Source of the DNA: Clostridiales bacterium
GTDB taxonomy: Bacteria > Bacillota > Clostridia > Saccharofermentanales > DTU023
DNA length: 64,000 nt
Reading direction: 5' to 3'
Assembly: GCA_028724525.1 (NCBI GenBank)
Contig: JAQYCV010000005.1
Coordinates: 90,898 to 154,897, forward strand
The translations under genes and the position numbers were made by a program. How positions within the stretch are numbered: the first letter of the stretch is position 1; every line of letters starts with the position of its first letter. The notes under the pieces are model-generated. The model worked only from the letters and a program-made list of their open reading frames with translations. It did no database searches and was not told the DNA's origin. Shown one piece after another: positions 31,330 through 56,483 of the stretch.

Positions 31330-31439
31330 TTCCTTAGCATACGGCAAGTATGTGAAAAAATCTAGTTGCCTGTTCGCAAGTTCTACTTTGGCTAAAGTGA
31401 AAAAGTAAGTTGGGGGTGCGGACAAAATCTTGGACAGCC

Positions 31440-31511
31440 TCATGAGGCAAAGTCCATGGTCCTTCTGTAATCAAGAGGGCTCAAGTCATTGAGTCTTCCG
31501 CGGTCAATCGC
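31440..31511 (-). pseudogene. IS3-like transposase C-terminal remnant
   Basis: Minus-strand translation RAIDRGRLNDLSPLDYRRTMDFAS* resembles the IS3-family C-terminal LxGLSPxEYR motif. Confidence 0.7.
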
Positions 31512-31875
31512 CCGATGGCAGCAAGCAGTTCATCATTGACGGCAGGATTTTACCAACTTTTGGCAAAATAAAAACAGGCAAGGGTCGAAGCCTTGTCCGT
31601 TTTTGAACGCTGTGTTAGCTTTAATAGATTTCTATTGACATCACATTTGAAATCCGTTAAAAAGTTTTTGAGTAGTATAGTACTATTTAACTTTTATGGT
31701 GATTGGAGATGATGGTATCATATTTCGTTTTGATGATAGACAGTTTGGCTTTTAATAAAAACGATTTCGATATAGTCCCCAATTGTGGAGAGGACGATGT
31801 AAATTGTTAATGTAAGTGCGTAAGCCAAACTGTAAAATGTTGGATTGCGCACTTTTTAGTTTGGAGGAATGTGCA

Positions 31876-32148
31876 ATGAAATCAAAACTAAAAAGAAAGT
31901 ATGCATATCTGTGTCTAAGTTTATTTGTTGCAGGTATCGTTTGCGTATGGGTTCCCTTTTTTTTTGTTTCATCAGAAACTGGAAAATATTTCGTTATTGT
32001 TGGCATTATCTTAGTTCTTTGTGCTCTTGGAGCAAAGTATATCTTACTAAAATGCCCTTATTGTGGTTATAGAGGATTAGTACCTCAATGGCATAGCAAT
32101 GGCAATTGCCATTGTCCCCAATGTGGGAACAAAATATTATGGGAATAG
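31876..32148 (+). CDS. Small two-TM membrane protein with C-terminal zinc ribbon (cargo gene)
   Basis: MKSKLKRKYAYLCLSLFVAGIVCVWVPFFFVSSETGKYFVIVGIILVLCALGAKYILLKCPYCGYRGLVPQWHSNGNCHCPQCGNKILWE; GGAGG upstream. Confidence 0.7.
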   Translation: MKSKLKRKYAYLCLSLFVAGIVCVWVPFFFVSSETGKYFVIVGIILVLCALGAKYILLKCPYCGYRGLVPQWHSNGNCHCPQCGNKILWE

Positions 32149-32232
32149 ACACAATTTTTTCATTGATATAGTTAGGAAAAAATCATTTGCTACTCGTTTA
32201 TTTGCTGTTTTACTAATGATTGCAATACTTAT

Positions 32233-32418
32233 GCCTCATCACCTTGTTCGTATAACACGGCCGGCCTTCCTGGCTCACTTTTTCCCCGCTTTTTGCCTCC
32301 GAACCCACACGGCATAGATGGGGATGCTCGGATAGCCTAGTGCCTTGATGGCTTTTCTCAAGCTTCCTTCCCTCTTGCAGACTTCCAAGGCTTTCCTGAT
32401 TTCTTCCTCTGAATACAT
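32233..32418 (-). pseudogene. IS3-like OrfA N-terminal remnant
   Basis: MYSEEEIRKALEVCKREGSLRKAIKALGYPSIPIYAVWVRRQKAGKK resembles the HTH of IS3/IS150-type OrfA; SD ggaagga. Confidence 0.7.
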
Positions 32419-32908
32419 ATTTCCTTCCAGAGTCCAGTTTTTTGTCCGCACCCCCGGGTCTCCATGGACGTGCATATTTGCAAGTAGTGGGTGGCCAGAA
32501 GTCTATGCTACTTTGGATTTCCGGATTCTCTGGCATTATTGCAACTAATGGGTGGGCCTGTCGGGCAAGTTTGCAAGAAGTGGATGATTACGTGAGCAAA
32601 TCTGCAGCTAATGGGTGGTTTGTTCGCAGGACTCCATCCATTACTTGTAAATTTGCCTGAAATCCCAGAAATCCGAAATAATTGGTAAGGCGGGTAGGCG
32701 GCAGAATGGCTAGGATGCTTGATATTTGATCATATCGCTAAGAAAGTAGCATACACGCTAAAGAGAACAAATCTAAATTTAGTCTTACTCTTCAAATCAA
32801 GGAAGAATTAGTTGGAAAATTTAGACGAAAAAATACCACAAGCCTTACCTGAGATATCTTGTAAGACTTATGGCAACTTTTTTAGCTTTTGGTGTGGAAC
32901 TTACTATT

Positions 32909-33643
32909 TTACTTTGGCAAGTTCTGCTTGGGGACTAGGCTAAGCTCCGCCGATCGGCGATATGTCCAGTAGGCGGATAGGCCAGCGAGGATCAGACAGG
33001 TGACTCCCAGGACTAAGAGCCAGACCTGGCGGCTATCTGGCCTCAGCCAGTAAGCGGCTAGGCAAGCTAGGCCTGCCCCCAGCTTTATCAAGATCGCCAG
33101 ACGGTTAAAGTTGGGGCTGGTCACAAAATCCTGGAATTTTTTCTTAGTCCATTTTAAGAACTGGGGCAAGGGCCATACAAAAAGACAGAAGAGGGCGATG
33201 GCTAAAGCGGCTAGACCGGCTAGGGCTCGGCGTAGGAGATAGGCAAAACCGGACTTCACCGGAGACACGAGGGCATCCCAGATACGGCGGTGGAGCCCCC
33301 AGAAACCTAAGACTTCAGGCTCTGCGGCTTGCACGATGGGGGCCTGCTTGTAGACCGGCTGGCCATCTACTTCCACAGACTGCTCAATCACAGTTCTAGG
33401 CTGGCTAGCTAGCTGGAGATCCTGGGGCTTAGATGGGCTAGCTATGCGGGCAGCCAAGGCTGCAGACACCAGCAAGAGGGCAATCTTGTCTTTGTTTTGC
33501 CGCGACCAGGTTCGGAAGCCCTGCAAATAGTCTTGCGGCTTCTGCTCGTTTTTATCTTGAGCCTTACCCTCTATCTCGCTCTCGTCATAAGGCTTGCTCT
33601 TCTTGTCGCTTTCGTCTTGAGACTTACTTCTTATTTCCTTCAT
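32909..33643 (-). CDS. Hypothetical membrane protein with charged Asp/Glu/Lys/Ser N-terminus
   Basis: KSQDESDKKSKPYDESEIEGKAQDKNEQKPQ then several hydrophobic segments. Confidence 0.6.
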   Translation of the reverse strand: MKEIRSKSQDESDKKSKPYDESEIEGKAQDKNEQKPQDYLQGFRTWSRQNKDKIALLLVSAALAARIASPSKPQDLQLASQPRTVIEQSVEVDGQPVYKQAPIVQAAEPEVLGFWGLHRRIWDALVSPVKSGFAYLLRRALAGLAALAIALFCLFVWPLPQFLKWTKKKFQDFVTSPNFNRLAILIKLGAGLACLAAYWLRPDSRQVWLLVLGVTCLILAGLSAYWTYRRSAELSLVPKQNLPK

Positions 33644-39264: not shown

Positions 39265-39587
39265 ATTGGCTAAAGTGAAAAAGTAAGTTCCGCACCAAAG
39301 GGAGCGAAGGTACGGAATGGGTGGCTAGAGAGCTATGCTACTTTGGATTTTCGGATTCTCCGGCATTATTACAACTAATGGGTGAGTCACTGGGCAAATT
39401 TGCAAGAAATGGATGGTAAAGAGGGCAAATCTGCAAGTAATGGGTTGCTAAGGCGCTAAGATCCATCCATTACTTGCAAATATGTCTGAAATCTAAGAAA
39501 TCCGAAATAAGGGGGCTAAATGGCCAAGATGTTTTGGGCCACGAGAACTGGCTCATGGAGCTAAATGTGACCGAAAGTAGCATGTAC
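39265..39587 (+). repeat. Dispersed repeat copy B (most complete)
   Basis: Collinear with A and C; ends ctatgctactttgg (left) and ccgaaagtagcatgt (right) form an imperfect inverted pair. Confidence 0.85.
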
Positions 39588-56271: not shown

Positions 56272-56483
56272 ATTTCAGACATATTTGCAAGTAATGGATG
56301 GATCTCGGCGCCTTAGCCACCCATTACTTGCAGATTTGCCCTCGATACCATCCACTTCTTGCGAACTTGCCCGATGGGCCCACCCATTAGTTGCAATAAT
56401 GCCGGAGAATCCGAAAATCCGAAGTGACATAGCCTCCTGCCACCCATTACTTGCAAATTTGTAGGCGGCCCATGGACAGACCC
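56266..56483 (-). repeat. Dispersed repeat copy C (minus orientation) abutting rsmG stop codon
   Basis: Reverse complement collinear with copies A/B: CATGGGCCGCCTACAAATTTGCAAGTAATGGGTGG ... CCATCCATTACTTGCAAATATGTCTGAAATCTA. Confidence 0.85.

Follow-up and report, generated by a model that had tools for sequence, protein, structure and literature searches.

How did a segment with the ends of an IS3-family insertion sequence (IS) come to carry a foreign gene in place of its transposase? The question is raised by a 1044-bp shell in a 64-kb stretch of DNA from a Clostridiales bacterium (64,000 nucleotides, hereafter the window). A preliminary description read this shell as a non-autonomous transposon or transporter IS with a passenger gene, or as the product of recombination inside an IS. 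The features of the locus are listed in Table 1.

Table 1. Coordinates of the shell, its contents and the host repeat, numbered from the first base of the window.
Feature	Position	Strand	Sequence or evidence
IS3-family shell, TIR-bounded, foreign interior, 1044 bp	31412–32455		
Left TIR (OrfB end)	31412–31435	+	GGGGGTGCGGACAAAATCTTGGAC; outer 24 bases identical in many IS3-family elements
Right TIR (OrfA end)	32432–32455	-	GTCCAGTTTTTTGTCCGCACCCCC; 25-nt identity to L108, L055, L052 and L157
OrfA remnant, first 47 codons	32275–32418	-	MYSEEEIRKALEVCKREGSLRKAIKALGYPSIPIYAVWVRRQKAGKK followed by a stop, start MYSEEEIRKALEVCKREGSLRKAIKALGYPS..; tblastn to same-TIR elements
OrfB C-terminus remnant	31440–31493	-	LNDLSPLDYRRTMDFAS followed by a stop; 47–53% identity over 17–19 aa to OrfB ends
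Left linker with bidirectional terminator-like hairpin (31577–31597)	31494–31682		
Cargo unit (leader + gene)	31683–32171	+	Second copy at contig C20:1551–2049
Leader inverted repeat	31740–31833	+	ACAGTTTGGCTT / AAGCCAAACTGT; one G-C to G-T change in second copy
Cargo gene, 90-aa two-helix membrane protein	31876–32148	+	C60–C63 / C80–C83 zinc-ribbon motif
Right linker, transition from AT-rich foreign to IS DNA about here	32172–32274		Composition; C20 homology ends
Host-repeat left terminal arm, interrupted by shell	31391–31411	+	GCTAAAGTGAAAAAGTAAGTT
Host-repeat remainder: motif cluster and right terminal arm (32896–32918)	32456–32918		Cluster TTGCAAGTAGTGGGTGG..

Ends of the shell

The terminal inverted repeats (TIRs) of the shell were 24 nt each and 88% complementary, with an outer part identical at 16 of 16 positions. 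In the 64-kb window, they were the only inverted pair of exact 16-mers no more than 3 kb apart. All that was left of the transposase between them, on the minus strand, was 47 codons of OrfA and about 17 of OrfB. The OrfA remnant started with an ATG 37 nt inward of the right shell end and was open for 47 codons. Its best tblastn match among the roughly 120 TIR loci fetched was L130, with 55% identity over 31 aa (E = 5.6e-6). The best match of the OrfB remnant among the same loci was L136, with 47% over 19 aa (E = 0.003). The OrfB match is weak alone, and the argument is carried by its position just inside the TIR: its stop codon lay 4 nt inward of the left 24-nt TIR, and the stops of the relatives were placed likewise. 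OrfB itself was not found in the shell by tblastn, and the pair of OrfA and OrfB (DDE) that marks the IS3 family was incomplete. The shell was flanked by TAAGTT and GGGTCT, without a 3-bp target-site duplication (TSD).

These results bore out what the preliminary description had said of the ends. The inverted ends bounding 1044 bp were the TIRs of full-length IS3-family elements, the OrfA-like N-terminus inside the right end was recovered by tblastn, and the C-terminus inside the left end matched the OrfB ends of same-TIR elements. One correction was needed, in that the OrfA reading frame stops at codon 47. Judged by the TIRs common to both, the shell derives from an IS3-family element. Little decay was visible in the TIRs or in the 47 remaining OrfA codons, and the shell may therefore be recent.

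IS3-family elements with the same TIRs

The TIR pattern GGGGGTGCGGACAAAANNNTGGAC was scanned over 85,462 species genomes, and at least 119 stretches matched. Among the matches listed, they came from Clostridia, Coriobacteriia, Betaproteobacteria and others, and many were located at the ends of contigs, where repeats tend to fall. Elements with both TIRs in one stretch were mostly 1.43–1.63 kb long, with exceptions of 1112, 1304 and 3221 bp. OrfB sequence was kept in all 18 other TIR-bounded elements among the matches listed, whereas the shell was without it. Exact 3-bp TSDs were present in 5 of 15 TIR-bounded relatives, compared with 0.23 expected by chance. The element of Mageeibacillus sp. 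UBA5747 (L025, contig DIFN01000027, 1542 bp) came from the same order as the source genome, and its OrfB was an IS3-family transposase (NF033516, 2.2e-96; Pfam rve and HTH_21). Same-TIR elements also occurred in Eubacterium sp. 14-2 and Polaromonas. The related full-length IS and the transposase homology of the ends, on which the preliminary description depended, were thus both found, with intact relatives in many genomes and one in the same order. AAAA-type TIRs were also seen at the OrfB ends of relatives, so both shell ends fall within the range of the family.

The ends of this IS3 type begin with GGGGGTGCGGAC and not with TG..CA, and the type was seen in at least three phyla among the matches listed. 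IS3-family ends are usually TG (PMC6211511), whereas the type found here starts with GG. The string GGGGGTGCGGAC was not met in the literature searched. In Oribacterium sp. oral taxon 078 (L088:2946–6166, 3221 bp), a same-TIR IS3 element was split by another transposase gene. This nested insertion shows that invasion of the interior happens in same-TIR IS3 elements.

Interior of the shell and the cargo gene

The interior (31506–32235, 730 bp) had a GC content of 34.7%, compared with 53% and 51% in the two IS ends and 52% in the window. The AT-richer interior of the preliminary description was thus confirmed, as was its two-TM zinc-ribbon protein encoded on the strand opposite to the transposase remnants. 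The cargo protein combined a pair of hydrophobic helices with two CxxC motifs (CPYC and CPQC), the features of a membrane zinc ribbon. Two helices were also obtained in a single-sequence structure model with a mean pLDDT of 63. No Pfam or NCBIfam model scored above cut-off.

A second copy of the cargo unit was found outside any IS shell, on contig C20, with 82% nucleotide identity (E = 1.1e-141). The two cargo proteins were 79% identical, and the coding differences numbered 11, 10 and 25 at the three codon positions. The dN was 0.11 and the dS was 0.55; the resulting dN/dS of about 0.21 indicates a history as a functional gene. The two copies therefore separated long ago as working genes, and did not arise because the shell jumped recently. 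The cargo was under purifying selection in its past and, with a leader and ribosome-binding site of its own, may still be expressed.

The C20 copy was without IS ends. On one side of it was a peptidase gene and on the other a truncated ORF carrying DUF4368 (7.8e-22), a domain that forms the C-terminus of many large serine recombinases. At L022:1577–2413 on this contig, the cargo copy adjoined the truncated serine-recombinase C-terminus, with peptidase and GNAT-type genes flanking. The neighbourhood is a remnant of another mobile element.

The leader was 193 nt long and common to both cargo copies, and its inverted repeat overlapped a terminator-like hairpin at 31814–31857; both structures were conserved in the C20 copy. 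The leader folded better than shuffled sequences in the shell copy (z -2.3), whereas the C20 copy showed no such excess (z -0.1). The leader is a possible attenuator, with a folding signal in one copy and too few sequences, two, for a firmer assignment.

Apart from the C20 copy and distant zinc-ribbon proteins, no cargo relative was found in plasmids, phages, viral contigs, the 85,462 species genomes or the class and phylum samples. The three foreign matches, two in one search and one in another, were such distant proteins of the same build. The left linker had no blastn relative in plasmids or 291 class genomes, with just chance-level matches of 22–33 nt. Those clustered in one part of the linker proved on inspection to be unrelated sequences and were attributed to chance. 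A peptide-derived linker pattern and a leader pattern gave no match in viral contigs. The Rfam search gave nothing significant, and PADLOC gave no defence family.

Insertion into a dispersed repeat

Comparison with other loci in this genome showed that the DNA on either side of the shell is not ordinary intergenic sequence but two parts of one dispersed-repeat copy. The left arm GCTAAAGTGAAAAAGTAAGTT occurred without error in L175, L185, L186 and L190, and with at most 4 errors in 13 of the 24 repeat loci fetched. The right flank (32456–32740) had blastn matches at 35 or more places in the genome, the best at 80–86%. About 40 full or partial matches to the repeat were present in its own genome. 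Complete copies were about 0.5 kb long and TIR-bounded, with GCTAAAGTGAAAAAGTAAGTTCC at the start and its inverse at the end. Among 118 genomes searched, the repeat was absent from all 117 relatives, including two of the same genus. It was short, non-coding, multicopy and TIR-bounded, as MITEs are. Further matches to it lay in the window at 39269–39479 and 56285–56456. An internal motif, TTGCAAGTARTGGGTGG, recurred at spacings of 31, 32 and 61 nt, with an inverted copy at the end, and one copy in the window was flanked by AGTTCTRCTT, a possible 10-bp target duplication.

When the flanks were joined, they aligned with L175 at 83% over 376 columns; the alignment began ahead of the left arm and continued far beyond the junction. 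Identity with L185 and L186 was 72.5%, and these alignments reached the right arm. The left border of the shell was exact to the base against the host repeat, and at the junction the repeat was 14 nt shorter than L175 and about 100 nt shorter than L176, L183 and L184. The flanks are one copy of the host repeat, which is restored when the shell is removed; this observation is new. The shell is thus a real insertion in one repeat copy.

An empty site in relatives, which the preliminary description had proposed to look for, was obtained in another form. The same locus in two relatives of the genus had 69–75% identity on the left side only and gave no empty site directly. In one of them (G001; L030 against window 31400–32900), a C69-type dipeptidase gene lay between a DUF969-type gene and a gene encoding LGFWGL.., where the window has the repeat and the shell. 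The empty site was supplied instead by paralogues of the host repeat in the same genome. As a point of method, such within-genome paralogues can replace a missing empty site and prove a bounded insertion.

Origin of the shell

The shell is probably what remains of a dead IS3 element, nested in the repeat, whose interior was replaced and which now holds a captured gene. An IS3-family element would have entered a copy of the species-specific, high-copy, MITE-like repeat by ordinary IS3 transposition, as suggested by TIRs that mark its borders exactly within the repeat. About 1.1–1.2 kb of the transposase interior would subsequently have been lost, and about 0.7 kb of AT-rich DNA, comprising the leader and the cargo gene, would have taken its place. 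The replacement may have occurred by insertion, or by recombination with deletion. Repeat DNA beside the element would also have been lost, which could explain the missing TSD. This would have left a shell that has no transposase and can no longer move on its own. Points against this origin are the little-decayed TIRs and OrfA codons and the draft state of the assembly; neither the interior breakpoints nor a source of the linkers came to light.

The main alternative is a mobile insertion cassette (MIC), in which a related IS3 transposase, supplied in trans, would have moved IS3 ends and a passenger gene as a unit into the repeat. Both TIRs are intact, the left border of the insertion falls exactly at a TIR, and the cargo gene is intact with its own leader. 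Transposase-less IS cassettes mobilised by a cognate IS are also a recognised class (PMC3129680). Nevertheless, this origin is unlikely. The signs of movement of MICs, several sites or a TSD, were not found for the shell, and its TIR pair had no second copy in its own genome. The assembly gave neither an OrfB homologue nor an IS3-family hit that passed the cut-off (best E 0.11; control genomes matched). As a draft of 47 contigs and 93.9% completeness, it may lack an intact partner IS, since such copies readily drop out of draft assemblies. The shell was absent from the related genomes, plasmids, phages and viral contigs searched, and close cargo relatives were likewise missing from the other genomes and collections sampled. 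Transposase sequence was present in all 18 other elements of the type, and the second cargo copy lay outside any shell. Cassette scenarios need the replacement of the interior and an extra transposition, whereas a dead remnant needs the replacement alone. For its single copy and missing TSD, the dead remnant was preferred to the cassette. It is rather doubtful that the shell is a trans-active IS3-type cassette with an attenuator-controlled membrane zinc-ribbon gene, landing in a species-specific MITE.

A composite transposon, with two direct IS3 copies around the cargo and internal deletions that left the outer ends, fits the orientation: with both remnants on the minus strand, OrfB sequence lies at the left outer end and OrfA sequence at the right. 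It is improbable, as a pair of independent IS copies would be needed along with two deletions, and no inner TIR is left within 31412–32455. A chance inverted repeat or an assembly artefact with an accidental resemblance to an IS had no point in its favour and was refuted. The 16-mer pair was the only one of its kind in the window, exact TIR matches occurred at about 120 loci, the flanks rejoined into a repeat, and the feature lay inside a 154,897-bp contig; an origin of this kind would be extremely improbable.

Of the preliminary interpretation, the IS3-family ends around foreign DNA stood, but the mobile element with a passenger was not supported: the non-autonomous transposon or transporter IS had no sign of movement, and the proposed search of the genome for a full-length same-TIR IS or for other shells gave none in the draft assembly. 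Recombination inside an IS, its third option, fitted best.

Comparison with known systems and significance

The shell resembles the IS3-family elements with GGGGGTGCGGAC ends in the TIR core (16/16), the OrfA start and the OrfB C-terminus with its stop, but it is 1044 bp long, without a DDE core and with foreign DNA on the opposite strand. It shares IS ends and a passenger without transposase with MICs such as MIC231 of Bacillus cereus (cited in PMC6542083). It differs from them in being single-copy, without a TSD and without a cognate IS in the assembly. It was not classified as a MIC, because it has the architecture of one but no tested sign of movement. Transporter ISs (PMC3129680) carry passenger genes together with a functional transposase; the shell likewise has a passenger within IS ends, but is without the transposase core. 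Partial and intercalated IS copies have been described by ISsaga (PMC3129680). Like such partial or nested remnants, the shell is a truncated IS inside another repeat with adjacent sequence lost, but it keeps both TIRs and an intact, unrelated gene between them.

A mobile shell would represent a cassette with a passenger from an IS3 subgroup in which the 18 other TIR-bounded members examined all retain transposase sequence. An immobile one would clearly exemplify how a gene that was functional in its past can shelter in a dead IS.
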